Shown here: piece after piece, positions 1 to 62,547 of the stretch
How the letters are laid out: the number at the start of each line of letters is the position of its first letter
Numbering within the stretch: position 1 is the first letter of the stretch
Virus record (IMG/VR): IMGVR_UViG_3300048587_001155
Coordinates: 1-64,000 of that record
Source of the DNA: a virus
Reading direction: 5' to 3' (one strand)
DNA length: 64,000 nucleotides
Program-made: the position numbers and the translations under genes
Notes under the pieces: model-generated
What the model was told of the DNA's origin: nothing
Databases searched by the model: none
Seen by the model: the letters and a program-made list of their open reading frames with translations, nothing else

Positions 1-255
1 GTGGCTCATTTAAAACTTGGCCCGGACGATATTCTCGATCGTTCTGGCCTGAAGGGTCTTGATCTCAAGGATTCGACGATCAGTCGTGAGATTCGAGAAG
101 GCCGCCTAAAATCCTACCGTCGCGCCGGGAAAGACTACTTCCTGGGTTCTGATCTTCTCGATTGGATCAAGGGCGGTAAGCGTCCTGATCCAGTCGCCAA
201 AGCGAAGTCATCCCGCATCGTCGATATGTACGGCGAGGGCGACGACGATGCCTAA
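1..255 (+). CDS. Small excisionase/AlpA-like DNA-binding protein (5' end may be cut)
   Basis: The product (84 residues as visible) has a helix-turn-helix-like stretch (STISREIREGRLKSY, about residues 26-40), then an aromatic/basic segment and SDLLDWIKG, the layout of short AlpA/excisionase-type winged-helix proteins. In integrated elements such proteins usually bind att or promoter DNA. The frame is already open at base 1 with GTG as the first codon and no upstream sequence, so the true start is undecided. The gene overlaps the capsid gene by 8 bases (248-255), so the two are probably co-transcribed. The family assignment rests only on this short motif; a general phage regulator is the alternative. 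Confidence 0.55.
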   Translation: MAHLKLGPDDILDRSGLKGLDLKDSTISREIREGRLKSYRRAGKDYFLGSDLLDWIKGGKRPDPVAKAKSSRIVDMYGEGDDDA

Positions 256-2203
256 GCTTCTCACCTTCAAGAGTAAGTGCCAAATCAAAGCATCGTCCGA
301 CGGGAAGCCGCCGCGGATCTCCATCGTCGCCTACAACGGTGGGTTGATAAAGGTGGGCGGATGGGGCCCGCTCGTAACTGATGTTGCCGGCCTTTCAATG
401 AACGCCTCAATCCCGATCCTCATCGATCACAATTCTTCTGTCGATGGGATCGCTGGCCAGGGCGTTGCGACAATCAAAGATGGACGGGTTTTCGTTTCTG
501 GAAACCTCGTTCCGGGCACAGACGGTGCGGACAAAATTACCAAGCTTTCGCGCGCCGGTCACCAATTCCAAGCAAGCATCGGTGTTGAGCCGAGTAGTTA
601 CCGATTCATCAAGGCAGGCGAATCGATCAACGTCAACAATCGCCAAATCAAAGCCGGCAAGGGTGGTTTTATCCTTGTCGAAAAGGGAACACTTCGCGAG
701 GTGAGCGTCGTCGCATTGGGTGCCGACGGTTCCACAAGCGTAACGATTGCCGCCAGGATGGCGAAGAAAAAGGGCAACAGCATGGAGTTTAACGCATTCC
801 TCGAATCGTGCGGTCTACAGGCTTCGGATCTTACCCCGGCGCTAATGACGCGATATCAGGAAATCCACAGTCAGATTGAGGCATCAGGCGACAACGACGT
901 CGACGACGACATTGACAACGAGCTTGTGCAGGCTCGCGAAAGTGCTCGAATCGCCGGAGTCACGAAGATTGCTGAGAAGCACCCGATCATTGCTGCTCGG
1001 GCGGTAGAGGAAGGATGGAATATGAAGCGAACAGAGCTCGAGGTTTTGCGCGCGAGCCGTCCGAAACCTCCAATCGTCCGAGGTTCGAACCATGACGCAG
1101 CCAACACGCCAGACATCCTTGCCGCTGGCTTCCTCATGAAAATGGGTCGTGAGTCGCTCGCCGAAAAGACATTCGGTGAAGCGGTCGCACAACGAGCGCG
1201 TGACCTTCGCGCGAATCACTGCCTTGACCTAGTGAAGGCATCTTTCGAGTTGAACGGCCGAAATGTGCCGCACAACGCGAACGAGATGGTTCACGCCTCT
1301 TTCGGTGCCTCAGGTATTGATTTGCCGGTGGCTCTGGGCAATGTTGCCAACAAGGTTTTGCTCGAAGCCTACAACCTCGCGCCGTCATTCTGGAGGCAAT
1401 TCTGTCGGGTCGGAAGCGTACCTAATTTCAAGCCGGCATCAATGATTGCCCCAAGCTTTCTGGGAAAGCCTGCCAATCTGGGTCACCATGGGGAGTTTGA
1501 GTCTGGACAAGTCAGTGAAGCAGTCGTCACAGGGAGTATTAACACCTACGGCATGGCTCTATCAGTCAGCCGGAGGAACATTATCGACGATGACCTATCG
1601 CTGTTCGATCAGACCGCTTCGGCCCTTGGAAAATCTGCGATGGGTGGGCTCTCTGATCTGGTTATCCAAACGTTGCTTTCGTCGAGTGGATTCTTTACCA
1701 CTGGCAACAAGAATTACATGAGCGGAGCTAGCACCGCACTAGACATTTCGCCTTTGTCCAGTGCTATTACGATGATGAGAAAGCAGCGTGACGCCGACGG
1801 CAGAGATTTAGATATTCAGCCGACGACGTTGCTTGTTACTCCGACATTTGAATTTACGGCACGATCCTGTTTATCTCAGACTCTGGTTGTGTCAGGTAAC
1901 ACAGATGTCACGAAGGGTGCTTCAAACCCGCTCGCAGGGTCTATCAAAAATGTCTCTGTCGAGAGCCGTCTTGAAAACCCGAACTTCACCGGCAACTCAT
2001 CCAATGCTTGGTACCTCTTTGGGCCGGCTGAAGCTGCCGCAATGCACGTATTGTTTCTGAATGGGCAGCAGAGCCCAACCGTCGAGTTCTTTGGGCTTGA
2101 GAGTAACCCCACGAAGCTTGCTCTGATGTGGCGTGTGTACTTCGACTATGGCGCTTGCATGGGTGACTTTCGTGCGGCCGTGAAGTCGAAGGGCGAAGCT
2201 TAA
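248..2203 (+). CDS. Prohead protease-major capsid protein fusion
   Basis: A 651-residue protein with two parts. Residues about 20-180 resemble a phage prohead protease of the U35/HK97 type: PILIDHNSS places a candidate catalytic His at 61 and FQASIGVEP a candidate Ser at 110, the His/Ser order known for that family. After a charged linker (about 190-330) the C-terminal 300 residues resemble a Mu/HK97-type major capsid protein (SRRNIIDDDLSLF, TTLLVTPTFEFTAR). Such fusions would self-process during head assembly. The start ATG overlaps the previous gene. The stretch downstream to 2332 has no gene. The capsid assignment is by overall pattern, not by alignment. Confidence 0.75.
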   Translation: MPKLLTFKSKCQIKASSDGKPPRISIVAYNGGLIKVGGWGPLVTDVAGLSMNASIPILIDHNSSVDGIAGQGVATIKDGRVFVSGNLVPGTDGADKITKLSRAGHQFQASIGVEPSSYRFIKAGESINVNNRQIKAGKGGFILVEKGTLREVSVVALGADGSTSVTIAARMAKKKGNSMEFNAFLESCGLQASDLTPALMTRYQEIHSQIEASGDNDVDDDIDNELVQARESARIAGVTKIAEKHPIIAARAVEEGWNMKRTELEVLRASRPKPPIVRGSNHDAANTPDILAAGFLMKMGRESLAEKTFGEAVAQRARDLRANHCLDLVKASFELNGRNVPHNANEMVHASFGASGIDLPVALGNVANKVLLEAYNLAPSFWRQFCRVGSVPNFKPASMIAPSFLGKPANLGHHGEFESGQVSEAVVTGSINTYGMALSVSRRNIIDDDLSLFDQTASALGKSAMGGLSDLVIQTLLSSSGFFTTGNKNYMSGASTALDISPLSSAITMMRKQRDADGRDLDIQPTTLLVTPTFEFTARSCLSQTLVVSGNTDVTKGASNPLAGSIKNVSVESRLENPNFTGNSSNAWYLFGPAEAAAMHVLFLNGQQSPTVEFFGLESNPTKLALMWRVYFDYGACMGDFRAAVKSKGEA

Positions 2204-10392: not shown

Positions 10393-11100
10393 GTGATAGA
10401 GACTCCGCGAATGGCAATCTACTCGGGAGCGACATGACGATTTCACTGAGAAAATGGGTCACGAATGACGCGCGAATTGTTCGCGACCCGTGAACGAGAT
10501 CCGTCAGTGTAACAGTTTACGTAACAGTTGACGGTTGCGCGGAAGAGAGCGGGCGACCTCGAGAGCGAGGCTAATAACCAGATTGATGAACTCAATAAGG
10601 AGCTGCACTTGCCGTTTGCAATTCAGTTGCCTATTCCTGCAAGTATCTTGTCTTAGGCGGCGGCACTGAGCCCGCGGCAAGAAATGAAATACCCGAGACG
10701 TCCGGCAAAGATCGTCTCGGGTAAGAACATCGCAGAGGCGGTATTGTAGCTCCCAGTCTCTTCGCGTCCACTTCGATGTTCACCTCATCTCTTGTTTGAA
10801 ACGGTTCCGAGTTTCGATTAGCCGGTTCGCAATGCCCGAAGCCGTAAAGGCATTCCACGACGCCGACACGTCTTTCGATCCCATAGCTACTTCAGGCCGG
10901 CATCTAACCCCAAAAGGGTTCGAGCTCGTCTTTCTCCGATGTAGCAACGGTCGTGACTCTCACCTGCAGACCGACCTAACGGTCTACCAGTTTTGTTGAT
11001 CGTCGACCTCGCCAATGATCGAAAGCCTTATTCCGCAGTTTGAATCTGAACTACCAGAATCAAAGGATTGCTACGCGCACTTCTAAGAAAGGATGTTGAA
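10393..11100. other. Intergenic region between the att core and the RNase H array
   Basis: About 700 bases without a gene I can support. It contains a perfect 11-bp hairpin (10690-10723) and TAACAGTT-type short repeats at 10508-10530 (GTAACAGTTTACGTAACAGTTGAC). An open frame at 10796-10999 lacks a ribosome site and is not called. This may be an arm of the neighbouring element's attachment region plus the promoter of the RNase H array. Confidence 0.5.
10690..10723. terminator. Perfect 11-bp inverted repeat (terminator-like hairpin)
   Basis: TACCCGAGACG at 10690-10700 pairs perfectly with CGTCTCGGGTA at 10713-10723, with a 12-base loop. No clear U tract follows on either strand, so a factor-dependent terminator, a protein-binding site or an RNA processing site is equally possible. 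Confidence 0.4.
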
Positions 11101-11811: not shown

Positions 11812-11841
11812 TACAGTCGCGATAACAAAGGAATGTTCGCA

Positions 11842-12570: not shown

Positions 12571-12676
12571 TCGACTGACAGCTCCATGTCAATCACTCGG
12601 AGACAGGGCAATTTACCAATCTCCACATTAGATACCTAAGCCGCACGCGCTCGGCGTGCAACGAAAGGAGCACATC

Positions 12677-13402: not shown

Positions 13403-13463
13403 GAGACCCGTTCACACACAGGGAGATTGTTGAAAGTTTCGATAGATAACTGAGGATCTCGCA

Positions 13464-14794: not shown

Positions 14795-16117
14795 ATGATG
14801 AAATCAGATGAACAGTTAAGCAGCGCTCAAGTTACGACTCCCTTGCGGGTGATCGAACTTTTTTGGCGTCTACTGAGACATCGTCGGCCTGCTATTGGGC
14901 ATGTCCTCGACATGGGGGCGGGCGATGGACGATTCGCGAAAGCCGGGGAATTCAGATCATACTTGGGAATAGAAATCGATCCGACAAGATCGAGGCATGC
15001 AAAGATCCCGAAGAACGCCAAAATTATAAGAGGCTGTGCGTTCAAGCATTCAGGCAGAGGTTATGATGCCTGCATTGGTAATCCTCCTTATGTCCGACAT
15101 CACGATATCGAGGGGAGTTGGAAACAGCGAACACTCCAAAGTCTTTCAAAATCGCTCGGAGTGAAGCTAGATTGTCGTTTCAATCTTTACCTCTACTTCA
15201 TGTGCCTCGGTCTCCTGCGCACTGCTCACGATGGGATATTGGCAGTCGTCGTTCCGCACGAATGGATTGGCCGTCCATCATCGCGTCCACTTCGCGAGTA
15301 CATTAGCAAACAATCGTGGGACGTAGATGTCTATCGGTTCACTCAGCCCATTTTCGAAGGAGTCCTGACGACTGCTTCGATCACATTCATTGATAAGTCA
15401 TCATCATCCGGCTCGTGGCGACACTATGATCTTTCGAATAACTTCGAAATGAATCCGAGGCCGATTCCTCGAAAATCTGTTCCTCAAATCCTCCCGTACG
15501 AACGCCGGGGAAAAATTTGGGCTATTCGCGGCCTGAGTCCCGGGTCACAGCGTTTCTTCGTTCTGACGGAGGGGGAACGAATTCACAACGGACTCAGGAA
15601 GTCGGACGTAGTTCCATGCGTGACGTCAATGTCTTCTATGCCGTCCGAAGTTGCCACATTATCGGTAAGTGCATTCAAAAAACACTTTGTGAACGCTGGC
15701 GAAAAATGTTGGTTGATAAAATCGCACTCAGAGAGCCCTAGCGATTCATTGGCCGCGTACCTTGGGACCGTTCCAGCTGGGATTCGATCAAACTTCACCT
15801 GCTCATCTCGCACCGTCTGGCATCAATTCCGTATGCCGAAACCTCCGGACATCCTGGTGAGCTCAGGATTCGTTTCGTTTGGACCTAAGGTAGTCGTGAA
15901 TGAAATTGGCGCGATTGGGATCGGAACTATTCATGGCGTGCACGGGGTCCCAAAGTCCAAACGGATCGGTTTGCGAAATTTCTTAGTGTCAACGAACTTT
16001 GAAAAACAGATTATTCCACATGCAAACACGTTGAAGAAAATCGAAGTTCGCCAGCTTAACGCAGCTCTCAATCGATATTCCACAGAGGTGAATAGAAATG
16101 CCGCGCGTCCTCTCTGA
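14795..16117 (+). CDS. N6-adenine DNA methyltransferase, M.TaqI-like
   Basis: AdoMet motif I is VLDMGAGDGRF (about residues 37-47), followed by an acidic IEIDP segment and the catalytic motif IV NPPYV (96-100), as in gamma-class N6-adenine methyltransferases such as M.TaqI. The upstream TTPLRVIELFW resembles motif X. The rest (residues 200-440) would be target recognition. No nuclease domain is visible, so this is not an Eco57I-type fused enzyme. The gene overlaps the ATPase gene by 20 bases, heading a four-gene operon. The start region lacks a clear ribosome site; ATG 14798 is an alternative. Confidence 0.85.
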   Translation: MMKSDEQLSSAQVTTPLRVIELFWRLLRHRRPAIGHVLDMGAGDGRFAKAGEFRSYLGIEIDPTRSRHAKIPKNAKIIRGCAFKHSGRGYDACIGNPPYVRHHDIEGSWKQRTLQSLSKSLGVKLDCRFNLYLYFMCLGLLRTAHDGILAVVVPHEWIGRPSSRPLREYISKQSWDVDVYRFTQPIFEGVLTTASITFIDKSSSSGSWRHYDLSNNFEMNPRPIPRKSVPQILPYERRGKIWAIRGLSPGSQRFFVLTEGERIHNGLRKSDVVPCVTSMSSMPSEVATLSVSAFKKHFVNAGEKCWLIKSHSESPSDSLAAYLGTVPAGIRSNFTCSSRTVWHQFRMPKPPDILVSSGFVSFGPKVVVNEIGAIGIGTIHGVHGVPKSKRIGLRNFLVSTNFEKQIIPHANTLKKIEVRQLNAALNRYSTEVNRNAARPL

Positions 16118-18320
16118 GCAAGATATTCCGTTTCAAACCGAAGGACGCTTGCTGCAAGAGCTAGGGCTGCGACTCGTCGCTAGTCCGCAGGTCGCACTTG
16201 TCGAACTCATTAAAAACGCTTACGACGCCGATTCGCCAATATGCGATGTTCGGTTAGAGGGCCAGAGAACGCTGATCGTTGAAGATCACGGAAGCGGTAT
16301 GACGCTTGACGATTTTCGAAACAGATGGATGCGAATCGCGACATCTGACAAGGCGACTCTTGCTACGTCGCCGAGGTTCAAACGTCCGCTCACTGGCGCA
16401 AAAGGTATTGGCAGATTCGCCGTGAGATTTCTGGGGAATCATCTCCATCTGACGTCAGTTGCATACGACAAGAGTCGAAAACTCCTCACTCAACTTGACG
16501 CCGATTTCAATTGGACCGCTCTCGATCGAGAAAGAGACATCTCTCACGCAGTTGTTCATTGCAAATTGATTGCAGCACCAGCCGGCGCACAAACGGGAAC
16601 CGTATTGCGAATTAGCTCTTTACGACAAGAAGTCGACTTTGCCCGCGACCAGTCCTTACGATCGGATGTCCTCCAAATCGTCACGCCTTTGCAGGGGTTG
16701 GATCGCGGTAAATTTGCGACGGAAAATGGAGTAGGAAGCGCCGATCCTGGATTCAAGGTAACACTTCCCGGTACCGATTCAGACGAGAATCTCGACCTCG
16801 CAGAACTCGTATTGAATAACTATTGGGCAAGATTGACTGTCGAACTTGTTGGAGCGCGTCTCAAGATAAAGGTGCACCTACACGAGTCTGGTGAAACGAG
16901 CGAACTAAATCTGCGTGTCGCAAGCGTCATCTCCAAAGGTTTCTTTGCCGATATCCGTTACTTCCCGCGTCGCAAGGGAGTTTTTAGCCAAAAGGGTATT
17001 GATGGACGGAAGGCATGGAACTGGGTTCGAACGAACTGCGGTATTAAAGTCGTTGACCACGGCTTTCATATTCATCCATATGGATTCAAAAAGGACGACT
17101 GGCTGCATCTTGATCATGATACGTCACACAATGAGCGGCAATGGAGCACACGAATTGCCCAAGAGCATTTTCCGATTAACCAGCTGATTCAGAAAGACCC
17201 GGCCATTAACCCTGCTCTGAATCTCGCATCAAATTTTCAGGTAGTTGGCGCCGTATTTATTGAGACAGCTCGTGACGCAGGAAATAAAGATGTAATCGAT
17301 TTATTACCTGCAATGGATCGCGAGGGCTTACTCGAAAATCAGGCTTTCCTTCAGTTAGTTGAATTCGTGAGGAGTGGGCTTGAATTTCTTGCGCATGTTG
17401 ACAAGCGTGCTCTCTTGAAGAAGCTAGAAATGGATGCGAAGCTTGCGGCCAAGTCGGCCCGGAAAGACATCCAGCAAGCAATCTCCCATATTCGTAATAG
17501 TCCGACACTGACATCTGCCGACAAATCGAGGATTGTCAAGCAATACGCATCGCTCGCTGCGCAAGTCGAGAAACAAGAGGAGTATTCTCAGCAAGCGCGC
17601 AGAGGCCTCGTTACCATGGGGCTGCTCGGCGTTGTTGCTGGATTTATGACGCATGAAAGTCGCGCAATACTTCATGATCTAGAATTAACCGTTTTGGCCA
17701 TACAACGACTGGCAAAGAAGGATCGATCACTCCAGAAGGACGCGGATCAGCTCGAGCATCGTCTAAACACATTTCGCGGGTATCTCGACTATTCTCGTTT
17801 ATTCATTCAAAGTGCACGGGTTCTACGCGATGAACCTCTAGCCGTTGCTAGCCAAATTCGCCGAATTATTGCGAACTTTGGCTCTGTTGCCAAAGATCGG
17901 GGCATCAAAGTGAGTATTGATGTGGATGAATCTGTAAAGACACCTCCGCTGCCGGTAACTGCTTACAGTGGCATCTTGCTGAATCTTTTTACCAATGCGG
18001 TGAAAGGAATTCTTGCAGCGGCCGGTAGCACTCCGAAGCCACTGATCAGCTTTCGATCGTGGAATGAACAGGATCGACATATCGTTGAAGTTGCTGACAA
18101 CGGTATTGGTATTCCACCGGAATTGAGACGAAGAGTGTTTGATCCTCTTTTCACCACCACTTCGGATGTCGGCAACCCGCTTGGATCCGGAATGGGCTTG
18201 GGCTTAACATTAGTCGAACAGGTTGTACGCGAATTTGAAGGAAGGATAACCCTTCTGGAAGTTCCGCCTCCGGGATTCAGCACGTGTTTTCGAGTCGTCT
18301 TTCCGAGGAAAGATAAATGA
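16098..18320 (+). CDS. Dual GHKL ATPase: MutL/Hsp90/MORC-like domain plus histidine-kinase-like domain
   Basis: The N-terminal 110 residues contain a GHKL nucleotide-binding site (ALVELIKNAYDAD at 33-45, VEDHGSGMT at 61-69, GAKGIGRFA at 100-108) of the Hsp90/MutL/MORC type. The C-terminus contains a second GHKL site of histidine-kinase type: N box (LLNLFTNAV, near 627), G1 (VADNGIGIP, near 665), F box (FDPLFTTT) and G2 (GSGMGLGLTLV). Before it lies an H-box-like GFMTHESRAI with His at about 519. No membrane segment is visible, so it is cytoplasmic. The downstream receiver-like protein is an obvious phosphorylation or docking partner, which is inference. Confidence 0.85.
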   Translation: MPRVLSEQDIPFQTEGRLLQELGLRLVASPQVALVELIKNAYDADSPICDVRLEGQRTLIVEDHGSGMTLDDFRNRWMRIATSDKATLATSPRFKRPLTGAKGIGRFAVRFLGNHLHLTSVAYDKSRKLLTQLDADFNWTALDRERDISHAVVHCKLIAAPAGAQTGTVLRISSLRQEVDFARDQSLRSDVLQIVTPLQGLDRGKFATENGVGSADPGFKVTLPGTDSDENLDLAELVLNNYWARLTVELVGARLKIKVHLHESGETSELNLRVASVISKGFFADIRYFPRRKGVFSQKGIDGRKAWNWVRTNCGIKVVDHGFHIHPYGFKKDDWLHLDHDTSHNERQWSTRIAQEHFPINQLIQKDPAINPALNLASNFQVVGAVFIETARDAGNKDVIDLLPAMDREGLLENQAFLQLVEFVRSGLEFLAHVDKRALLKKLEMDAKLAAKSARKDIQQAISHIRNSPTLTSADKSRIVKQYASLAAQVEKQEEYSQQARRGLVTMGLLGVVAGFMTHESRAILHDLELTVLAIQRLAKKDRSLQKDADQLEHRLNTFRGYLDYSRLFIQSARVLRDEPLAVASQIRRIIANFGSVAKDRGIKVSIDVDESVKTPPLPVTAYSGILLNLFTNAVKGILAAAGSTPKPLISFRSWNEQDRHIVEVADNGIGIPPELRRRVFDPLFTTTSDVGNPLGSGMGLGLTLVEQVVREFEGRITLLEVPPPGFSTCFRVVFPRKDK

Positions 18321-19399
18321 AAAGTCTGAATATACTTCTCTTCGATGACGTGGAAGAGAATCTGCGTGAGGTTCAAGATCTTATTTCAAAAGAGCTTGGC
18401 GTTAAAGGGAAGGTGGAAGCATATCCTCTTGTTCGGAGAGAAACCTCTAAGCTGGGCGACCCGGAGCCATTCGAAGACATCATCGAGCGCGAGCTCAGGA
18501 AGCGTGCGGAGCCGGTCAGCCTAATAGTCGCAGACCGAGATCTATCGCGAGCCACAGATTACCGTGGACTGTCAGAACCAACCGTTCGCCGCGCCGCAGA
18601 ACGACTTGCGATACCGGAATGTGGCTATGCACGCGGTGAATCCGGGGACGCTATCTCATATTTGGATATTGGCGAGAAGAGAGAGGAGTGTATTCGCCTT
18701 AGCCTCACTCCCCAAGATGTGTTCGCTCGGAAGGTGGTCGACATCGCCGAAGGATTCGAATGGATGAAGGAGCAGGTCCCAAATGTAATGCAAAAGATGA
18801 AAGGCAGACAACCATCTCCGGCAAAGATACTCGCCGAATTGTTGGGAGTGCCCGATCAAGTTGAGAAAATTTCCCTCTTTGCTGTGGGCGATAAAAATCG
18901 ATTGGGTGACATCCCCAGACTTGGAAAATCTTCTTCAGACGAGAGAGCACGGAGGCTCGCCTATCTCTTGGGTTATTGGCTGTGGGACTCTGTCTTATTT
19001 TTTCCTGGGCTTGTAGTAAATGAAATAGCCGCATCAAGTTACTTGAATATCAGCGTAGAAGAGTTCAGAAAAAAGGATGTAGCAAGTTTATTCTCCGCGG
19101 CCAAATACTTGGGTCCGTTCTCCTACGCGAGAGGGCCTCTCTGGTGGCGCGGTAGGCTTGATTCACTACTCGGTGATTTCGAAGACGGAAACTCTCTAGC
19201 GACGACGAACCTCGGTCGAGAAGTCGCACCATGCTTATGCTCCGTAGATCCTTCGATACAGGCGGGCTTCGTTTGCGTACTGTCAAACAAACCTGTTAGT
19301 AGCAAAAACTCAACAGGCAAATTGCTTTGGTTGCCCCGAGGCGCCGATTTGGCTCGGGTGAGTCGCACGATGATCGATGAGTTTGGTCCATGGCTGTAG
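18317..19399 (+). CDS. Receiver-like domain protein with a large unknown C-terminal domain
   Basis: The N-terminus (LNILLFDDVEENLREV) has the beta1 hydrophobic strand and paired Asp (residues 10-11) of response-regulator receivers. LIVADRDLSRAT puts a candidate phospho-acceptor Asp at 73 or 75. The usual Lys of the fold is not evident. About 240 further residues (from LTPQDVFARKVVDIAEGF) match nothing I know; they have two hydrophobic stretches (AYLLGYWLWDSVLFFPGLVV) but no clear DNA-binding motif. Start and the previous stop overlap as ATGA, so the gene is translationally coupled to the ATPase gene. Confidence 0.7.
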   Translation: MKSLNILLFDDVEENLREVQDLISKELGVKGKVEAYPLVRRETSKLGDPEPFEDIIERELRKRAEPVSLIVADRDLSRATDYRGLSEPTVRRAAERLAIPECGYARGESGDAISYLDIGEKREECIRLSLTPQDVFARKVVDIAEGFEWMKEQVPNVMQKMKGRQPSPAKILAELLGVPDQVEKISLFAVGDKNRLGDIPRLGKSSSDERARRLAYLLGYWLWDSVLFFPGLVVNEIAASSYLNISVEEFRKKDVASLFSAAKYLGPFSYARGPLWWRGRLDSLLGDFEDGNSLATTNLGREVAPCLCSVDPSIQAGFVCVLSNKPVSSKNSTGKLLWLPRGADLARVSRTMIDEFGPWL

Positions 19400-19409
19400 A
19401 GAACGAGAT

Positions 19410-20105
19410 ATGTCACAATTTCCAGGACAAGCCCGGTATGCGGATCTCATTGCTTCATTCACTCGACACCTTCAGACTCCCTGTGGAATGATCGACATCT
19501 TTCCTAGATCCGAAGCTGAATGGTTTAGGTCTACCCAAAAGACGGCTTCACTTTCGGAATGGAAGTTCGAAATCGTAATGCACCTTCCGCGATGGAAGGC
19601 CAGGAGAAAGGAAGTTTATATTATCCTTCATGCAACCGAGACCATACAGCGAAGGTCTGGCGGGGCTGCGATAGTGACGAAATCCACCGTGCGCCTTTCA
19701 TATTGCGATGTTGAAGAAGAGTGCGAGCTCCTCCATTCAATTCACTATGACTTTGACAAAATAGTAGAAAAGCATCCTCTGTTCCATGCACAGGTAACGA
19801 ATGAAGCTCCTTCATTACCCGATGTAGCTCAACAGGAACTCGAGATCATTCTTCCAAAGCCGCGTTCTCCGCTTTTTAAATTTGCACGAATTCCAACTTC
19901 CGACATGACTCTCCCTTCGGCACTTTTGTGCTTAGCGGCAGATCATTGCGGAGACCAGGAAGCGTTTGACGCATTCCGCGAAAAGGTTATGTCACTTCGC
20001 GAGAAAATGCATTACGCCGATGCGTCGATGATTACGAATCATGTAAGTGGATCAAAATTACCAATTCTTTGTAGCTCGGTTTGGTTCGGAAAGTCGCCTG
20101 AGTAG
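19410..20105 (+). CDS. Hypothetical protein, fourth gene of the methyltransferase operon
   Basis: ATG 19410 lies 10 bases after the receiver-like gene with GAGA upstream. The 231-residue product is soluble and mixed alpha/beta (WKFEIVMHLPRWKARRKEVYIILHATETI; SIHYDFDKIVEKHPLFHAQV). I recognise no family or catalytic motif. The end of the operon is marked by a terminator about 180 bases on. The constant direction and short spacing suggest that it acts with the methyltransferase and the ATPase. Confidence 0.65.
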   Translation: MSQFPGQARYADLIASFTRHLQTPCGMIDIFPRSEAEWFRSTQKTASLSEWKFEIVMHLPRWKARRKEVYIILHATETIQRRSGGAAIVTKSTVRLSYCDVEEECELLHSIHYDFDKIVEKHPLFHAQVTNEAPSLPDVAQQELEIILPKPRSPLFKFARIPTSDMTLPSALLCLAADHCGDQEAFDAFREKVMSLREKMHYADASMITNHVSGSKLPILCSSVWFGKSPE

Positions 20106-50147: not shown

Positions 50148-50582
50148 TTACTTCACATGAGGGCTTCCGTACTTCTCTGTCACCATTTCGACAAGCTCTT
50201 GTCGAGGTAGAGAAGCTTTCGACGGGTCCATTCGTAGCTCATCAGAAATTGATTCGTCAATTAGATCCACTGCGAGCTTGACAGGCGGGGTCGGTTCTTT
50301 CTCCTCCGATCGGTGCTCGACAACCCCCTCGCATTCAAGGTTTCTCTCTTCGCAGATTCGCTTGATGTGCCCCCGGTAATCGCTGGTATCGATATGGCAA
50401 CCAAGCTGCTGCGAAAAGACCGTCGGCGTGTCGATTCCACGTGTAATCGTGGCGTTTGTCTTGATCGTCGGATAATCCTTATGGGCGTGCATATGGGCGA
50501 GCCAAGGATCAAAGCCGTCAGCAACCATGCGGTCGAATTCCGCCTTTATCTCAGGCGTCCGGAAGCTGAATTCCTTGCTCAA
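50148..50582 (-). CDS. Phage protein coupled to the portal gene, 144 aa
   Basis: The start overlaps the portal stop as ATGA. The product begins EFSFRTPEIKAEFDRMVADGFDPWLAHMHAH and has a single Cys pair further on (IKRICEERNLECEGVV); the C-terminal helix (ASLPRQELVEMVTEKYG) is amphipathic. I recognise no family; a small head-assembly factor is plausible. Confidence 0.6.
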   Translation of the reverse strand: MSKEFSFRTPEIKAEFDRMVADGFDPWLAHMHAHKDYPTIKTNATITRGIDTPTVFSQQLGCHIDTSDYRGHIKRICEERNLECEGVVEHRSEEKEPTPPVKLAVDLIDESISDELRMDPSKASLPRQELVEMVTEKYGSPHVK

Positions 50583-52528
50583 GGTGCGTCTCCTTTCTTT
50601 TCTGCGGACGAACCGTTCGGATCATTTCCCTCTTCACCGGTGGGAGGCACGACCGGCGGGGCGGGAATAAGCTCTTGCATCGAGACGAGGTACTTGGACG
50701 GATCCAGACCTTGCGCCTTCGCCCAATCGGTGAGCAAGGCATTGATTTGATTGACCGCCTGCGGGGTGATTTGGAAGAACTGCATCAGGATCGGCAGGAT
50801 CGTTTGCACAGAGGCGGTCATATTCGCTATTTGCTGCTCTTGATTCGGTTTCTTCACTGAGCCCGCTTCGATGCGGAAATCGAGTTCCCGCATGATTTGT
50901 TCGCGCGTTTGACTCCGAATCGTTTGGTTCCATAGGAACGCTCCCGTCGTCCCGAGAACCGGCTGAATGTCCTTCTCTTCGAGGTGGTACCACGCCGCGA
51001 GGGCCTCCAAGCGGCTCACTTCGGTCATCCAATCCTCGACCTGATTGGCCATCGCCGTGATGCGAATTTGCGAACGATCCCCCTTGAGCGAGGCCTCCTC
51101 GGCCGACCGCATCGCTCCCTGGCCATACATCAACTCCATGAGGCCCGTACGGCGCTCGAAGAGCTGCATCATCAGATCCATGACTTTCCATAGATCCTGG
51201 TTCATCTCGGGGTGCTGAAGAAACTCAATCGAATCCTTGATTGATTTGACCGTCCCGTCGACTTCCACCATCGTCAGGTCCGAACCGTTCTGAATGGCCG
51301 TTTTGAGGTTCTCTTCCAGCCCTGTCTTCATCGCAATAATGTCGCGCGACCGTTTGGCGATGCCGCTGACCAAGAACGAGAAGATCCAGTCAATGGCCTT
51401 CAGTTCAGAAAGAGCAGGGCGGATATGGCTCATGGGCCACGGGGAACGGGGAACTTGATGGAAGTCGAGCAAGGCGAACGGCCATGATCCTTCCGCCCAG
51501 AAAGGGGTAGGCCAAGCCAGCCGATTGGCAATCTCCTCGACGTTCATGGTCTCCGGCTTATAGAGGTTCAAGAAGAAGTTCGAACCTTCCGTGACGACCA
51601 GATAAACGAAATCCCCGATCATCAGATCAATCGCATCCTCTTCCTCGGAGGAGTTCTCCTTTCCGACCAGCGAGGAGAGTCGGTACCCCAAACCGATCTT
51701 CGAGAAGATCTCGTAGAAGACGACGAGATCGGGGTTCGGCTTCTTACGATCCGTTTCCTTCGTGTCGGCGCTATTCGTTCCCGACATCGAACTATCGAGA
51801 TCACCCTTCACTTCACCCGGAGGTAGCTCGAATACCTCCTCCACCTTCCACTTCGGCCAAATCCGCCGGCGAATGACGAATCCCGCATCCTGCAGGGTCT
51901 CGGTATCGGCATCAATCAAGAGATTGTCCACGGTGTCGAATGTGCTCGACACCATTCGCTGTTCCGAGTCCGGCCACGTGACGAGCTCCGTCCAAAGCAC
52001 GCCACGTCCCTTGATCAACGCCTCGTCGACCGCAAGGCGCGCATGCGTCTTGAGTCCGCCTCCGATCATTTCGTTGGGAGTGTAGTTGAGATAGGCTTCC
52101 ATCAGCCGCGCACGAACGCTTGCCACCGCTTCGCGCATCGTTCTCTCTTGCTGAACAATCTGGGCGTACTCAGGGCCATAGAGCAGCGCGATCGAATCGA
52201 TCAAATCGGGGGATGGCCTAAGCGTGCACCGTCGGTTCGGATTCGCATGATACAGGTAGGGGCCGATCACACTTTTCACTTCGAACACTTTGTTGACGTT
52301 CCCGCGGAACATGGGCGTGGGGACGTTGGCATCCTCAGGAGCGAAGAACGAAGACACCTTCTTGCGAAAATCGCTATTGAAGATCTCGCCGGCGTTCCCC
52401 GTGTAAAAGTCCATGGCCGTTTTCGCGTCACTATCGAACGGCTCTTTCGCCTCCTTTGCCTTCTTGACGCGCATTTGCCATCGCTTCACCAGTTCTTTGA
52501 AATTCGTCGGCTTACCCACGGGAGTCAC
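50579..52528 (-). CDS. Portal protein, 649 aa
   Basis: The protein has portal hallmarks: helical N-terminus with FDSDAKTAMDFYTGNAGEIF, the crown/stem region with RNVNKV- and VKSVIGPYLYHANPNRRCT, LLIDADTETLQDAGFVIRRR, and a C-terminal part with RSAEEASLKGDRSQIRITAM and TREQIMRELDFRIEAGS. It lies between terminase and scaffold genes as usual. Twelve copies would form the DNA entry ring. Short-tailed-phage type is inferred from the length and neighbours. Confidence 0.8.
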   Translation of the reverse strand: MTPVGKPTNFKELVKRWQMRVKKAKEAKEPFDSDAKTAMDFYTGNAGEIFNSDFRKKVSSFFAPEDANVPTPMFRGNVNKVFEVKSVIGPYLYHANPNRRCTLRPSPDLIDSIALLYGPEYAQIVQQERTMREAVASVRARLMEAYLNYTPNEMIGGGLKTHARLAVDEALIKGRGVLWTELVTWPDSEQRMVSSTFDTVDNLLIDADTETLQDAGFVIRRRIWPKWKVEEVFELPPGEVKGDLDSSMSGTNSADTKETDRKKPNPDLVVFYEIFSKIGLGYRLSSLVGKENSSEEEDAIDLMIGDFVYLVVTEGSNFFLNLYKPETMNVEEIANRLAWPTPFWAEGSWPFALLDFHQVPRSPWPMSHIRPALSELKAIDWIFSFLVSGIAKRSRDIIAMKTGLEENLKTAIQNGSDLTMVEVDGTVKSIKDSIEFLQHPEMNQDLWKVMDLMMQLFERRTGLMELMYGQGAMRSAEEASLKGDRSQIRITAMANQVEDWMTEVSRLEALAAWYHLEEKDIQPVLGTTGAFLWNQTIRSQTREQIMRELDFRIEAGSVKKPNQEQQIANMTASVQTILPILMQFFQITPQAVNQINALLTDWAKAQGLDPSKYLVSMQELIPAPPVVPPTGEEGNDPNGSSAEKKGDAP

Positions 52529-52918: not shown

Positions 52919-54757
52919 TTATCTCAGATCCGGCCGTTTGTTGGGCGAAAGATCCACACCTCCTTTCTTTCGCGTTTTAGCGGCACGTTTCGCAAGTCTT
53001 GCCAGTATCGGATCGGAAAGATTATCCCGTCTGTGGCGGGGCCGAACGTACCTTGGTTGCCTTGCCGCGAAGTACTCGGCGCAGGTCACCAGGTGATTAT
53101 CTTTGTCGACTCGCTTATCGGTCGGCTGACCATCGGCCCGTTTCTGATAAACCTGTTTCGACATCTCCCAAACGAAGTTTTTGCACTTGTCCTTGTGGAC
53201 CCGGAGGACGGGAGTATCCGTCTGTGGCCTCATCTCGAGCCATTGCCGGAACGCTTCTTCGCGTCCCTTGATATCCCGGCTGCCGGGCCGAAATCCGTAA
53301 CCGGTCGCGATCGCACGAAGCCCCTTCTTCCGAAACGCCCGCTCATACGACTCCTCGACCGATATCCCGGAACCGATTTGAGTTTGCCGGCCCATCGACA
53401 TATCGATGATGAATTCCTGAAAAGTCTGATTCTCCGACTTTCGTTTCACCAAGTCAGCGAACTTGTCAGCCGACGCGCGCTCGAGATAAACCTCGTCGTA
53501 GAAGTGGACTTCGAACCCGAACTCCAGAGGAGGAATCGCGGCAAACAATCCAGCGGCACGCTGAACGCCAGGATCCACGATGAGGAAGCGACACCAGTCC
53601 GAGGGAATGGGAAAAGCATCGATAATGTGTCCAGGGACCGAAGGCATGCTCGGGCATTTGATTTCAGGAATGAATTCGGGATAGACCCGGAGGGCTCGGC
53701 GCCGCGATTTTCCCTCGTACCTGACCTCCCGTTCCGAAGGACTCAACTTCTTCCAGAATTCTTCTTTCGCTTGCTTGCTGATCGAAGGGTTGTCGTCGAT
53801 GTGAAGAAAGATTTCGACACACGAATCATCGGACGGATTGGCCGCACGATCGCGCATCTCATCGAGAACTTCAGTAGCCGTCTGCGGAGTGGCCGACCAC
53901 TGGAAGAAACCGCCCACTCGATCGACACGTCCACGCACCGCGACTTCCGGGTACCACTCCTCGTTGACGATTTCTTCGTCGAACCAAACGAGATCGTATT
54001 GATCACCCTGAGGAATATCGCCTTCCGATGATGCGAAGAAGATTTCCCAATCGTTGCGGAGTCGGATGCTTGCGGGTTGTCGGTCCCGTTTGTTGTACCA
54101 ACTGATGTCCTTGATCATTCGAGGCGGGATGAGGGGAGGGGCAAGCTTCCATTCATCCTCGCGGCTCATATCAGAGCGATTACTGAACTTCACGGCCCGC
54201 CACTGCCCGGTTTCCAGATCGCGAATGATGCTGAACGCACCGGCGCGTCCGAGTTTCTTCCAGATGATGCGGCCGATATGAGGCCAATCCTTGCCGACGA
54301 CGATCGCGGTTCCGCCGAACTCCGGGGTTCCGAGATATTTTCTCTGACTTGTTCCGCCATGGAGACCCTTGATCGTGCGAGGATGCTGACCGAGAACAAC
54401 CTTTGCAAAGTTGGCCGTAGCGACCGTCGTCTTACCCGAACGGTTCGAACCGATGATGGCGATCTCGGAAGCCTTCGATTTGAACACTTCCCGTTGGCCG
54501 GGATTGATCGGGGTGAAGAGTCGCCAACCCTCGATACGGCGAGCGTTGAACTCTTCCATGATGAGCTGCTCGGTAGGAGTCAGCGTCGCATTCGGTGGAA
54601 GGTGTTGTCTCTCTTCGTCGAGCTTCTTGAGATAGTTGGTTGCCTCTTCCGAAGCCTTGGGGGCTCGCTGACGGAAGGCCTCCATGAGTTGTTCAAGTTC
54701 AGCCGGATTCGTCTTCGGCTGTTTCTTCGGCCGACCCGGTTTCTTCTTCGCTGCCAT
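52919..54757 (-). CDS. terL: Terminase large subunit (ATPase-nuclease)
   Basis: Walker A is IGSNRSGKT (102-110), Walker B YDLVWFDEE (254-262), followed by a coupling motif (WSATPQTATEV). The C-terminal nuclease domain starts at LIVDPGVQRAAGL with further acidic residues (FIIDMSMGRQTQIG). The enzyme packs DNA into the prohead and cuts concatemers. GAGGA precedes the start, which overlaps the 3' end of the small upstream gene by 59 bases. The N-terminus (KKKPGRPKKQPKT) is very basic. Confidence 0.9.
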   Translation of the reverse strand: MAAKKKPGRPKKQPKTNPAELEQLMEAFRQRAPKASEEATNYLKKLDEERQHLPPNATLTPTEQLIMEEFNARRIEGWRLFTPINPGQREVFKSKASEIAIIGSNRSGKTTVATANFAKVVLGQHPRTIKGLHGGTSQRKYLGTPEFGGTAIVVGKDWPHIGRIIWKKLGRAGAFSIIRDLETGQWRAVKFSNRSDMSREDEWKLAPPLIPPRMIKDISWYNKRDRQPASIRLRNDWEIFFASSEGDIPQGDQYDLVWFDEEIVNEEWYPEVAVRGRVDRVGGFFQWSATPQTATEVLDEMRDRAANPSDDSCVEIFLHIDDNPSISKQAKEEFWKKLSPSEREVRYEGKSRRRALRVYPEFIPEIKCPSMPSVPGHIIDAFPIPSDWCRFLIVDPGVQRAAGLFAAIPPLEFGFEVHFYDEVYLERASADKFADLVKRKSENQTFQEFIIDMSMGRQTQIGSGISVEESYERAFRKKGLRAIATGYGFRPGSRDIKGREEAFRQWLEMRPQTDTPVLRVHKDKCKNFVWEMSKQVYQKRADGQPTDKRVDKDNHLVTCAEYFAARQPRYVRPRHRRDNLSDPILARLAKRAAKTRKKGGVDLSPNKRPDLR

Positions 54758-58382: not shown

Positions 58383-58751
58383 TTATCGCGTGACGATCCG
58401 CTGAGTCGTTCTCGATCGATTCCCCAGAAAGGGCAGGCGGGAATTCTGAGTCGTCGTCGTGATCTTTTGGAACCTCGGCGCCGCGACTGCCTGGATCGGT
58501 GCCACCGCCGTCGAATAGGCTACATTCGCTTGGGCAACGATCGGCTGGAATTGCACCGGCGCCGCGACATAAGACGCAACGACAGGCTGCGCGATGACCG
58601 CCTGTGCGTATACCGGTTGTGCGATGACCGGCTGAGCCACAACGGCCTGTTGCACAATGGCTTGCCCTCCGCATCCCGCGAAAGATCGGCCCGGCACGAT
58701 TGCCACAAGGCCGAGAACCAAAAGAGCAAAAAGCAGATGAAACGTCCTCAT
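58383..58751 (-). CDS. Secreted AQPV-repeat protein, 122 aa
   Basis: A typical signal peptide (FHLLFALLVLGLVAIVPGRSFAG) is followed by repeated VxAQPV units (VVAQPVIAQPVYAQAVIAQP). Repeats of this kind are common in exported planctomycete proteins. Start overlaps the previous stop (ATGA), so it is coupled to the haem-motif protein upstream. Extracytoplasmic location is well supported; the role is unknown. Confidence 0.65.
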   Translation of the reverse strand: MRTFHLLFALLVLGLVAIVPGRSFAGCGGQAIVQQAVVAQPVIAQPVYAQAVIAQPVVASYVAAPVQFQPIVAQANVAYSTAVAPIQAVAAPRFQKITTTTQNSRLPFLGNRSRTTQRIVTR

Positions 58752-59542
58752 CGGAGAGGCTCCTTAAATCGAGTGTCGACGATCCCACGCAAATCACCTG
58801 ACTTGCTCGGATGGGAGTCGTCGAGAATCTTCAGGCCGGGGGGAATTCGGAGGCGATAAGGAAGCGAGTTCGACTCACGCGCGGGCATCTCGCCGATGGC
58901 CGATCCGAAATCGACGAGTCGCCCGTTTTCATCGACTCTGCCAAATCGCCATAAGTTCGTCGAAGATTGCGATCCAGGCATAGGAGGGGCCGGCGTTGGC
59001 TTGGCTCCGGGAATCGCTTTCAGGGCCTCGAGTAATGCCTTCGGATCTTGCCCCATCCACTGGTCGAACAGAATAGATTCCTCATCCGACAGAGGCTGAT
59101 CCGGAGGCATGCTTCCCATGCGAACCCGAGTGGCGATTAAGACCTTCGTCTTGACGTCGTACATCCCTTCCTGATCGAGACGAAGCCCCCCTTTGGCAGA
59201 ATCACCACTGTGGCAGCTCGAGCACTTCGTCGTCATCAATTCCTGAATCTGCTCATCGAGAGGAGTCGATCCGATCCGCGGAGCCCCGCCGGTTGTTCCT
59301 GGCTGGCAGTTCGCCAAGGCCTGCTCGATTCGGGCGAGCCGCTCGTTCATCTCGTCCACCTTTCGGCCGGCGAGCAGATTCTCCCTTTCCTGGCCAACGA
59401 CGTACGTCCAGAATGGATCCGGTACGGGGATGGTCACCGCACTGACGTAGGGTGTCACCGCTTGCACCTGCTGAACCGCACAAGCCTGTTGTCCGCACTG
59501 CGACGGAAGAAACGTGACCAAAAGGGTCGCTAATAAAATCAT
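58748..59542 (-). CDS. Secreted c-type cytochrome-domain protein, 264 aa
   Basis: ATG 59542 overlaps the preceding stop as ATGA, far better than the TTG at 59602. The N-terminus MILLATLLVTFLPSQCGQQ is a signal (possibly lipoprotein) peptide. MTTKCSSCHSGDSAKGGLRLD is a CxxCH haem-attachment site in the planctomycete cytochrome C style, with MPPDQPLSDEESILFDQWMG as the following helix. A coiled segment (NLLAGRKVDEMNERLARIEQ) precedes it. Electron transfer is possible if haem is attached; it lies in a phage operon, which is unexpected. Confidence 0.75.
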   Translation of the reverse strand: MILLATLLVTFLPSQCGQQACAVQQVQAVTPYVSAVTIPVPDPFWTYVVGQERENLLAGRKVDEMNERLARIEQALANCQPGTTGGAPRIGSTPLDEQIQELMTTKCSSCHSGDSAKGGLRLDQEGMYDVKTKVLIATRVRMGSMPPDQPLSDEESILFDQWMGQDPKALLEALKAIPGAKPTPAPPMPGSQSSTNLWRFGRVDENGRLVDFGSAIGEMPARESNSLPYRLRIPPGLKILDDSHPSKSGDLRGIVDTRFKEPLR

Positions 59543-60831
59543 GGTGCTACTGCCTCCACTTGATTGACGATCGCGATGGCATCCCCCAGCAGATCTTCCC
59601 AAGCCTGCCTACTGATTCCCTGACGCGCGAGCAGCGCCGCGAACGTCGCCAGGAGAATCCTCTTCCGCCGATACGGTGCGGATAGCTTTCCTAGATCCTC
59701 CACGGGAATACCAAGTTCAGTGGCCGCGATCTCTGGCGTTATCGGTTGATCCAGATATTGCACTGTCATCCGTCGAAATTCATGGGCGACCACTTCGGGC
59801 TTGAGGTTGCAGGCCTTCGATACCGCCTCGCCGAACCTTGCTTGATCCTTCGAAATCGTGTCCGCCAGATTGGTGAGGAATCGATCTTCAATTCGCTGCT
59901 GATTGTTCCGATCGTAGGTCTCGAGCTTAAGCGATTTGCTGTTGATCATCGAAGAGACGTCATCCGTGAACGCGTTGATGCCGAGTCCGTGGCATCCGAC
60001 ACAGCTCCTCGCCGAGTAGATTTGCTTGTCCCTCGCCGTCGTTTCGTAGTCTTGGGCGATCGCGGCCGGGACGACTTGTACCGCGTTACCTTGACCGTCG
60101 GCGATGTAATACGCTTGCAAACCATTCGCGAGCGTCCAGATGAATTCCCCCGCGTCATGCTTCGATACCTCGAGGTTATCGATGATGTTGTCCTCGTCGA
60201 AATCGCTCAGATGATCCTGTGATTCCCACCAATAGCCCGTGAGGGACGGGTACCGGATAAGCCGACGGTTGTGCAGCGCGACGGGCGACCGGAACTTCGA
60301 ACCGTAGATATCCGCCTTCAGAGCAACCGCGTCGTCGATTCGAATTCGATAGGTCGATTGCACGTCGGCTAGTTTCCCGCCGAGCTTCAGAAACGAGTCA
60401 TAGAACGGCTTGTCCGAGGAATACGTCAGGAATCCCTCGAGACGAAGAACCGGGCTTACGGTCTGGAACGGATCACGCGTCGTCTTCGACAACGACCGCC
60501 AGACGGGAACGAATTCGTATCCGCGCTTTTGGGCGAGATTCTCCCACGCCGCGATATCCCATTCGTAATCCCGCAGATCGACGCGAAGGAGTGTATCGCT
60601 CACCTGAAATGGTCTGATGATCCTCGGCCGACGTGACAACGAGTTCACCCAGAACGAAGCGACCTCTCGCGCCGTTGCCCGTTGATCAGCTGGTATGGCG
60701 TAGAGGGAGAGGTACCGAATGAACGGTCGATCACTCGGGGAGATTTGGAGCACGTCCACGAGGGACGCGTGGAGTTCACTTGCCGGGCTGGGGAGGCCTG
60801 CAAGCATCACGATCGAGAGGATGGCTATCAC
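59539..60831 (-). CDS. Secreted protein with a CxxCH haem motif, 430 aa
   Basis: GTG 60831 follows GGGGGA. The signal peptide (IAILSIVMLAGLPSPASEL) is clear. The middle contains RSCVGCHGLGINAFTDDVSS, a c-type haem site, after about 290 residues of unrecognised sequence (YYIADGQGNAVQVVPAAIAQ). The C-terminus is helical. Similar large planctomycete proteins with a single CxxCH exist. Overlap with the next gene (ATGA) means the two haem-motif proteins are co-translated. Confidence 0.7.
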   Translation of the reverse strand: MIAILSIVMLAGLPSPASELHASLVDVLQISPSDRPFIRYLSLYAIPADQRATAREVASFWVNSLSRRPRIIRPFQVSDTLLRVDLRDYEWDIAAWENLAQKRGYEFVPVWRSLSKTTRDPFQTVSPVLRLEGFLTYSSDKPFYDSFLKLGGKLADVQSTYRIRIDDAVALKADIYGSKFRSPVALHNRRLIRYPSLTGYWWESQDHLSDFDEDNIIDNLEVSKHDAGEFIWTLANGLQAYYIADGQGNAVQVVPAAIAQDYETTARDKQIYSARSCVGCHGLGINAFTDDVSSMINSKSLKLETYDRNNQQRIEDRFLTNLADTISKDQARFGEAVSKACNLKPEVVAHEFRRMTVQYLDQPITPEIAATELGIPVEDLGKLSAPYRRKRILLATFAALLARQGISRQAWEDLLGDAIAIVNQVEAVAP

Positions 60832-60845: not shown

Positions 60846-61670
60846 CTACAGCGAGAACGTCTTCCCGTTGACGAGCAGGCTTCCTACTCCGACGCCTGAC
60901 GGAATGTTGATGGTGATTTGACCCGTAGGCGTTGGACCGACCGGAGGGACTTTCGACGAAGGGCCATAAAGCGCCACCGCATCGGCGATATCCGCCGCGA
61001 GAGGCTGATAGACGTTGGCCGAGTAGATCGGATTCATCAGCGCCTTCGCTTGATTCGCGGCAGTATGCCGGAACCCGATCGCATGGCCAATCTCGTGCGT
61101 GGCAACCGCCAAGAGGAGAATCGCGCCGTTCGCCGTGGTGACTCCGAACGTCTCATCCAGGTCGTAGACCTGATTGAGTTGAGTGTCCGGGCGTGCTCCG
61201 TCCGGCAGTTCACTCCATGCGAGAACCCCCATCGGTCCGTCGAATCCAGCTCGCTTTCCTTTCCCGGTCGTCATGATGACGTTGGCACCGGCCGCGCCCA
61301 TGACTTCTATCGGCCTGAGTCCGCAGACCGCGCCCCATGCCGCCCACGCCTGTCGATACACCTGGCGAGCTTGGTCCGAAGTAAGACCGTTGGGAGTCGC
61401 CTGAATGTAATACTTGACGTCCATCATCGGCCATTTGCAGCCAGCCGTGGTGATCGTCTGAATGTCCGGAAGGCCGCAACCGCACGTCATTCGCTTCAGA
61501 AAGGCACGCTGCGTAATGCTCCCGGCATTCCCGTCCTCAGTGAGCCCTTGGTAATGCTGAAAGGATTTGACCGCCTCTTCTAGCTCGCCATCTTTCTTCT
61601 TTTCGAAGAAGTCTTTAGCGAGATGACCGAGGGAGATCAGTCCATTGATCAATTGCAATTCCGTGAGCAT
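60846..61670 (-). CDS. Pro-matrixin metallopeptidase with peptidoglycan-binding-like propeptide and cysteine switch
   Basis: Residues about 33-57 resemble a peptidoglycan-binding domain (VKSFQHYQGLTEDGNAGSIT). CGLPD at 65-69 corresponds to the cysteine-switch motif (PRCGVPD) of matrix metalloproteinases. HEIGHAIGFRH (192-202) is the full metzincin zinc site and ALMNP (210-214) a Met-turn. Domain order therefore equals that of eukaryotic proMMPs. No signal peptide is visible, so release would follow lysis or occur through a virion. AAGGG precedes the start. Target (cell-surface or host protein) unknown. Confidence 0.85.
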   Translation of the reverse strand: MLTELQLINGLISLGHLAKDFFEKKKDGELEEAVKSFQHYQGLTEDGNAGSITQRAFLKRMTCGCGLPDIQTITTAGCKWPMMDVKYYIQATPNGLTSDQARQVYRQAWAAWGAVCGLRPIEVMGAAGANVIMTTGKGKRAGFDGPMGVLAWSELPDGARPDTQLNQVYDLDETFGVTTANGAILLLAVATHEIGHAIGFRHTAANQAKALMNPIYSANVYQPLAADIADAVALYGPSSKVPPVGPTPTGQITINIPSGVGVGSLLVNGKTFSL

Positions 61671-61719: not shown

Positions 61720-62187
61720 TCACTTCTTGATGAGAAGCGGAATCAAGGTCGGACCGTACTGGACGATGAAGGTGAAGATCTTGTCCCAAGGAATATCCTT
61801 GAGAACCTTGAGGGCCTCCCGGCGGTCGACAATCTCTGCCTGAAAGACAGGTCGAGCTTCATCGGACGTGTGGTTATCCACGAACGTCTGCATGGCTTCG
61901 ACGAACTCAGGAATGAGCACCGTCGGCTGAGCAATGAGGAATTGAACGTCCGGAGTGGCGATCGGTCCCGAGGGAGATCCATCAGCCGGCGGTTCCCCGA
62001 CGAATAAATTGAGGCCGTAACCCCACAGAATGTGCAGATTCTTCAAGATCAAGGGGATGTTGTCGGTGATCTTCCCTTCCCGGAAGATCGCGAGCAGCGC
62101 CAAAGCCTCATTGATCGGAGGCTTGGTCGGATACGGATAGTTGGTCGGTTCCGTGGTCGTCAATTCTTCGGTCTTATCCTGGGTCAT
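61720..62187 (-). CDS. Hypothetical lysis-side protein, 155 aa
   Basis: The product begins MTQDKTEELTTTEPTNYPYP, then EALALLAIFREGKI and ends in a hydrophobic C-terminus (FTFIVQYGPTLIPLLIKK). Domains are not recognised. Position between the holin-like protein and the metallopeptidase suggests part of the lysis or host-interaction unit. Confidence 0.55.
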   Translation of the reverse strand: MTQDKTEELTTTEPTNYPYPTKPPINEALALLAIFREGKITDNIPLILKNLHILWGYGLNLFVGEPPADGSPSGPIATPDVQFLIAQPTVLIPEFVEAMQTFVDNHTSDEARPVFQAEIVDRREALKVLKDIPWDKIFTFIVQYGPTLIPLLIKK

Positions 62188-62205: not shown

Positions 62206-62547
62206 TCAAGACGAAGACTTCGGCAGAGATGTCTGAAGCTTCGCGATGACGGAACTCACTTCTCGGAAAGCAACCGTGTTGTCGGTGATCACCTGCTGTT
62301 GCGCGATCACCATATTCTCAAGCTTCGTCCGTACCTCGTTCTCGAGCAGATCGATCCGTTTCCCCATCCGCTCCTCACGAGCCACCGATTGATTGGTGAA
62401 GTCGTCGAGCTGTTTCGTCGAACGAGCTATCTGATCCTCCTCTCGTTTGGTCGCTCGATCGTGGTACACCTTGTTCTGCAGGAAATACGCGACGGCGATA
62501 AAGCCCAGAACGCCGTATTGCATGAGCACATCGGATCCACCATCCAC
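62206..62547 (-). CDS. Holin-like one-helix membrane protein, 113 aa
   Basis: GTG 62547 follows AAGGAG; it lies 3 bases after the previous stop. One transmembrane helix (VLMQYGVLGFIAVAYFLQNK) is followed by a cytoplasmic coiled coil (KREEDQIARSTKQLDDFTNQ; VRTKLENMVIAQQQVITDN). This layout matches BhlA-type and other single-helix holins. Holin function is inferred from topology and position near lysis-side genes. Confidence 0.6.
   Translation of the reverse strand: MDGGSDVLMQYGVLGFIAVAYFLQNKVYHDRATKREEDQIARSTKQLDDFTNQSVAREERMGKRIDLLENEVRTKLENMVIAQQQVITDNTVAFREVSSVIAKLQTSLPKSSS

Follow-up and report, generated by a model that had tools for sequence, protein, structure and literature searches.

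Among the closest known counterparts of the phage protein described here are the vertebrate proMMPs (M10A; proMMP-1, proMMP-2, and proMMP-9), with which it has a prodomain, a Cys motif, a zinc site, a Met-turn, and the catalytic fold in common. Those cellular bacterial matrixins that have a PG-binding prodomain and CGxPD share the order of these parts; that of Paenibacillus sonchi (WP_202677761.1), for example, is 27% identical to the phage protein over 192 aligned columns. They differ from it in being encoded by cellular or plasmid genes and in keeping the structural-zinc histidines, and those of Paenibacillus carry C-terminal repeats. The propeptide of karilysin from Tannerella is very short and has an aspartate switch. 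This bacterial matrixin is close in fold to the model of the phage protein (8b2q, Z 22.1, 32% identity). The matrixin fold is also borne by insect DNA viruses (ascoviruses and granuloviruses; BFVD), but these are eukaryotic viruses and their proteins are mostly larger among the matches listed. Bacterial MMPs and their transfers were treated in a 2025 paper (PMC12587646), the available part of which uses none of the terms phage, virus, and cysteine switch. A metzincin of phage origin is described for Listeria, where Mtz and a TIMP-like partner, Tim, alter the cell envelope and sensitise the cells to phage lysis, according to the available part of that report (PMC8235301), in which the term cysteine switch is likewise absent. 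As far as that part goes, Mtz-Tim resembles the present locus in joining a phage-derived metzincin to a cassette partner and differs from it in its TIMP-like lipoprotein partner, its Gram-positive host, and the presence of a signal peptide (PMC8235301); the pair is a precedent for a phage metzincin in lysis.

The locus lies in a 76,533-bp IMG/VR record, whose bases 1-64000 constitute the window, that is, the whole stretch of 64,000 nucleotides analysed here. Pfam and PHROGs matches to a terminase, a portal protein, a capsid protein, a head maturation protease, a tape-measure protein, an integrase, and a primase were found in the record, and its description as a phage in the initial annotation was correct, given the terminase, portal, capsid, and tape-measure matches. 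The matrixin gene belongs to a same-strand run that continues into the terminase and portal genes. The genes around it are as follows.

62206..62547, minus strand, 113-aa protein whose single, borderline hydrophobic segment precedes a charged region
61720..62187, minus strand, 155-aa gene upstream of the protease
60846..61670, minus strand, predicted matrixin (M10) metalloprotease zymogen of 274 aa with an ATG start (Pfam, PDB search, model)
58383..58751, minus strand, 122-aa V/Q/A-rich repeat protein with a hydrophobic N-terminus by inspection, probably a neighbour belonging to the cassette
52919..54757, minus strand, terminase large subunit (family match), downstream of the matrixin in the same gene run
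50579..52528, minus strand, portal protein (family match)

The 155-aa gene had no family match in Pfam or PHROGs. The 113-aa protein matched phrog_25855, a family of unknown function (E 0.0015), and is possibly a candidate of the holin or spanin type.

Several other features of the record were observed. Two primase-type genes lie near its two ends (window 248-2203 and L003:6624-9038), as do two similar tyrosine integrases (window 9159-10292 and L003:14883-15950); further integrases and a resolvase are also present, and the record may consist of two related elements side by side. Four genes at window 11068-14402, which from the sequence look like consecutive ORFs, match RNase_H and form an odd tandem set. 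A methylase of the Eco57I type, a HATPase protein, and an ORF resembling a response regulator stand in a row at window 14795-20105 (ORFs assigned by reading), possibly as a carried defence island. A probable Abi_alpha abortive-infection gene lies at the record end (L003:15916-16533; family match, ORF assigned by reading).

The following parts were recognised within the matrixin gene.

61503..61640, minus strand, PG_binding_1-like prodomain, residues 11-56
61464..61484, minus strand, switch peptide C63-G-C65-GLPD, residues 63-69, with CGLPD at 65-69
61065..61097, minus strand, zinc site HEIGHAIGFRH, residues 192-202, by sequence motif
61029..61040, minus strand, Met-turn LMNP, residues 211-214, with Met212 in ALMNP

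Peptidase_M10 (PF00413) matched residues 79-236 with 67.6 bits (cut-off 24, E 1.5e-18), and PG_binding_1 matched residues 11-56 with 28.1 bits (cut-off 23, E 2.4e-6). The Met212 column was nearly invariant in a 29-row alignment of phage matrixins. In a phmmer search against the PDB, residues 33-237 aligned with human proMMP-9 (E 1e-15), and the phage CGLPD fell over CGVPD. The order first read from the sequence, namely a PG-binding-like propeptide, CGLPD, HExxHxxGxxH, and a Met-turn, was thus borne out; the Pfam scores, the motifs, and the proMMP-9 alignment place this order far beyond chance.

Compared with the vertebrate proMMPs, the phage protein shows several differences. Its switch motif is TCGCGLPD, in which the switch Cys is preceded by Gly, where Arg is usual, and position 63 holds an additional Cys; the strict PRCGxPD motif is therefore absent, CGxPD being kept and PR replaced. 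The positions that we take to be the structural-zinc ligands of MMPs (H, D, H, and H) are all changed, to a gap, K, W, and V, respectively, in the MMP-9 alignment. In addition, no signal peptide was seen by inspection, and Pfam gave no hemopexin match. Since the structural-zinc ligands and the PR of PRCGxPD have gone, the sequence indicates a matrixin with a proMMP-like lock, and not a vertebrate-type MMP.

The conservation of the putative switch was investigated in the same 29 rows. The Cys65 column held Cys in 27 of them, the two exceptions (L030 and L031) being close kin, and no other N-terminal residue was kept as well across the phage rows. Outside this alignment, the switch Cys was read in L156 and was absent from L153. 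In ten phage proteins (from L017, L021, L023 (twice), L024, L025, L026, L029, L038, and L042), it was found by eye within residues 1-40, which leaves too little room for a complete PG-binding domain. The Cys thus persists where this domain has been lost, in keeping with a role in blocking the zinc. A CxC pair, with another Cys two positions away from the switch Cys, occurred in 7 of 27 phage rows and in 0 of 21 cellular ones (p 0.014; the test was made after the enrichment had been seen, and on rows that are related).

Structure prediction had been proposed as a check on whether Cys65 is positioned over the zinc. The AlphaFold2 model had a mean pLDDT of 85.4, and its catalytic domain superposed on MMP catalytic domains with a Z of ~22 and an rmsd of ~2 Å over ~150-160 residues. 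For proMMP-2 (1ck7), model residues 65..239 aligned with chain residues 102..449 (2.1 Å over 166 residues), and for proMMP-9 (5th9), residues 65..235 aligned with 99..443. In both rows, Cys65 is thus the first residue aligned, and its partners, 102 and 99, are the switch cysteines of the two proenzymes, but the pLDDT there is only 54 (residues 61-70) to 64 (residues 71-80) and the model contains no zinc. Rows spanning the whole prodomain superposed at about 10 Å, so that the placement of the prodomain is unsure. Cys65 may accordingly occupy the proMMP switch position, with low confidence in the model.

It could instead be argued that Cys65 is a structural or disulfide Cys with no switch function, and that the N-terminal domain genuinely binds peptidoglycan and so targets an always-active protease. 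The non-canonical TCGCGLPD, the degraded motifs of many relatives, and the low model confidence at residues 61-80 would suit this reading, but the Cys is the best-kept N-terminal residue of the phage rows and persists where the PG-binding domain is missing, and we consider the reading very unlikely. A conserved disulfide between C79 and C116 was also considered and dropped, as the two Cys do not co-vary by eye in the 29-row alignment.

With the single sequence as the query, no close relatives were found in IMG/VR viral contigs, GenBank phages, or GTDB genomes. A four-row matrixin profile was required, and with it at least 44 viral loci (IMG/VR) and at least 80 genome loci were kept. Among the matches listed, a CGxPD-like motif was located 130-145 residues before HExxH in 21 of 78 cellular bacterial matrixins; these are the loci with a readable zinc site among 80 bacterial ones, two having been dropped because no zinc-motif ORF was read, and 15 of 30 host-phylum loci were dropped for the same reason. 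Plasmid copies in Paenibacillus and Streptomyces carry CGLPD, CGQPD, and CGVPD. The CGxPD motifs of the cellular loci and plasmid copies indicate that the proMMP-like order is ordinary in bacteria. Hence, the likeness to proMMPs drawn in the initial annotation stands as far as the layout and the conserved switch Cys are concerned, whereas the design is neither eukaryote-only nor isolated, given the 21 cellular matrixins and the diverse relatives in at least 44 viral contigs. Phage proteins of this fold are also present in BFVD, where Peptidase M10 is one of the names they bear.

A tree was built from 54 catalytic domains, 28 of them from phages and 26 hand-picked from cellular matrixins (18 bacterial and 8 host-phylum rows, with eukaryotic rows left out). 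The phage rows and two host-phylum rows on long branches formed one group (support 87/75), to which none of the other cellular rows belonged. This grouping argues for an old phage matrixin lineage. Two further observations concern the margins of the family. A Paenibacillus prophage (L004) was rejected as a relative; it matched via its C-terminal repeats, and its HExxH protease lacks the layout. L049 and L050 carry a HEIGHALGLPH motif inside a very long tape-measure-like ORF and are distant from the window matrixin.

The main new result is the pairing of the protease with two genes for putative cytochromes, termed cyt1 and cyt2, which recurs in several unrelated phages. In the window, the pair is arranged as follows.

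59539..60831, minus strand, cyt1, a 430-aa exported-looking CxxCH protein, 15 bases downstream of the matrixin
59989..60003, minus strand, CxxCH of cyt1, C277-H281, from the alignment of cyt1 members
58748..59602, minus strand, cyt2, a 284-aa PSCyt1-like CxxCH protein (Pfam below cut-off), the next gene after cyt1
59210..59224, minus strand, CxxCH of cyt2, C127-H131, from the alignment of cyt2 members

Each protein has one CxxCH and a hydrophobic N-terminal stretch, and the CxxCH was invariant in 10 of 10 aligned cyt1 and 10 of 10 aligned cyt2 sequences. A downstream Met-Pro was kept in all ten cyt2 rows. Met-Pro after CxxCH resembles class I cytochromes c. With its CxxCH and distal Met ligand, cyt2 has the sequence marks of a c-type cytochrome and is predicted to bind heme. 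The PSCyt1 domain (PF07635) scored 20.2 bits in the window cyt2, below the cut-off of 22, which was passed by the host fusion proteins L133 and L134. The model of cyt1 was fair (pLDDT 76.6, pTM 0.81), and it had no Foldseek match at E 0.001 in the PDB or BFVD, which is not proof of a new fold.

Among the matrixin loci listed (at least 44 viral), a profile detected a cyt1 homologue in eight contigs (L019, L021, L024, L025, L028, L035, L036, and L037, the last three near-identical). A scan anchored on cyt1 gave six viral loci and added L153, L154, and L156 to the set, and a protease gene lay within 3 kb of cyt1 in all six: a matrixin in five and a papain-like fragment in L154, a C-terminal part located at the contig end (Peptidase_C1, E 6.9e-4, 20.2 bits against a cut-off of 20.7). 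Altogether, cyt1 followed directly by cyt2 adjoins a protease in ten distinct contigs (the window, L019, L021, L024, L025, L028, the L035-L037 group, L153, L154, and L156; nine with a matrixin and one with the papain-like fragment), seven of which were found via the matrixin itself, so that the co-occurrence is partly ascertained. A literature search found no phage matrixin-cytochrome cassette.

The protease of the cassette can change. In the genome G370, assigned to Planctomycetota because it belongs to the same phylum as the Phycisphaerae bacterium L098, the gene in front of a cyt1 homologue (E 1.7e-69) encodes a subtilisin (Peptidase_S8, E 1.1e-58); no cyt2 was seen at this locus. As the homologue precedes terminase and portal genes, the locus is a prophage. 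Matrixin, subtilisin, and papain-like genes beside cyt1 indicate that the protease class is exchangeable among metallo, serine, and probably cysteine types. A C-terminal targeting tail shared by the matrixins and the G370 subtilisin was also considered. It was rejected with a profile from which the tails of the subtilisin and of the window matrixin had been withheld: the former was absent from the best 25 listed, and the latter (E 2.5) did no better than shuffled tails.

Furthermore, L133 and L134, which are cellular and of the same phylum as L098, have a PSCyt1 domain of the cyt2 type fused in front of a cyt1-like stretch, which supports joint action of cyt1 and cyt2. It was also observed that L133:1-2805 combines a Ser/Thr kinase, the PSCyt1 domain, and the cyt1-like part in a single chain. 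Matches to cyt1 were found in 11 of 392 genomes of Planctomycetota, the one phylum searched.

The placement of the protease in a lysis-side operon was plausible, although not every observation agreed with it. Of 31 phage matrixins, 20 had a small membrane protein no more than two genes away, whereas for the background, namely the remaining genes of 150 aa or more in these loci, the figure was 81 of 381 (Fisher p about 1e-6, the rows not being independent; two of the 31 loci, L021 and L042, gave no row, as a longer overlapping ORF displaced the matrixin). The window itself fails this test: no neighbour of its matrixin passes the membrane-protein cut-off, the 113-aa protein falling below the hydropathy limit used. 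As a separate observation, two metalloprotease-motif genes stand around or near one small membrane protein in L023, L041, L043, L045, L046, and L051. In L021, L036, and L028, the cassette comes after a tape-measure gene or before an integrase; in the window and in G370, it precedes the terminase. Lysis genes can sit before the terminase, as in lambda.

Lysis genes were not recognised in the record: 52 otherwise unannotated genes matched 10 Pfam (E 0.01) and 23 PHROGs (E 1e-5) families, none of them a lysis family, and the matrixin matched a PHROGs endolysin only at E 0.16, through its PG-binding part. The absence of a recognised lysis enzyme has little power as a test. Four lysin families were over the cut-off in 0 of 19 matrixin records and 4 of 18 random contigs (29-117 kb), a comparison covering these families only and records that may be fragments; one sub-cut-off M15_4 match occurred in the L020 record. 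This contrast is weak, and the lack of lysins was rejected as proof of protein-based lysis.

Signal-like N-termini in some phage relatives (L026 and L030) fit secretion instead of a lysis role. They would suit a prophage that supplies its host with a secreted protease for nutrition or competition and brings the heme proteins along as accessory cargo, and so would the matrixin matches, which were found in 185 of the phylum's 392 searched genomes, and the cyt1-like stretches mentioned above. This lysogenic role seems rather unlikely to us: the matrixin gene lies in the terminase and portal run rather than beside the integrases, the phage matrixins separate from most cellular ones in the tree, and small membrane proteins are enriched beside them. 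We give a similarly low chance to a virion-associated protease, packaged or tail-bound, that would digest a protein-rich host surface at entry and be silenced by its prodomain during assembly. The lack of a visible signal peptide in the matrixin, the position of the cassette after tail genes in some contigs, and the exchange of protease class, which suits surface digestion, speak for it; against it, the matrixin matched no virion protein family (PHROGs), and no fusion to a tail domain was seen except in the distant L049 and L050 ORFs.

Here, we tentatively propose, as the most likely of the roles considered, a model in which a latent matrixin, acting with two heme-c proteins, would break down the envelope for egress from a Planctomycetota-type host; we regard this model as possible, somewhat short of probable. 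Expression of the matrixin would coincide with that of the late genes, in a phage that is tailed and probably temperate, and in the reducing cytoplasm Cys65 on the catalytic zinc would keep the enzyme off. Near lysis, it would exit the cytoplasm via a phage-made membrane lesion. Cys65 might then be released by oxidation, perhaps through a Cys63-Cys65 disulfide, and/or by loss of the prodomain, and the active matrixin would cut envelope proteins and let the virions escape. It would act with the two exported heme-c proteins from the next two genes, in a cassette whose protease class is exchangeable. A more specific version appears quite unlikely: a redox-gated lysis cassette of Planctomycetota-type hosts, in which a zymogen stored in the cytosol is fired outside by the CxC disulfide with the aid of two periplasmic c-type cytochromes, the protease class (metallo, serine, or cysteine) is swappable, and the classical endolysin is replaced.

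As the set of a protease and two heme proteins recurs in several unrelated phages, it is probably a genuine means by which phages take the host envelope apart, and one that has been little studied. A literature search found no paper on cell exit by phages of Planctomycetota-type hosts, for which the recurrent protease-cytochrome cassette offers a concrete handle. If the proMMP-like lock in phages is real, it would provide a simple bacterial system for studying the evolution of the cysteine switch, including very short forms in which the Cys is preceded by no more than about a dozen residues. The cassette would also place c-type cytochromes in a phage operon for a reason besides host metabolism.
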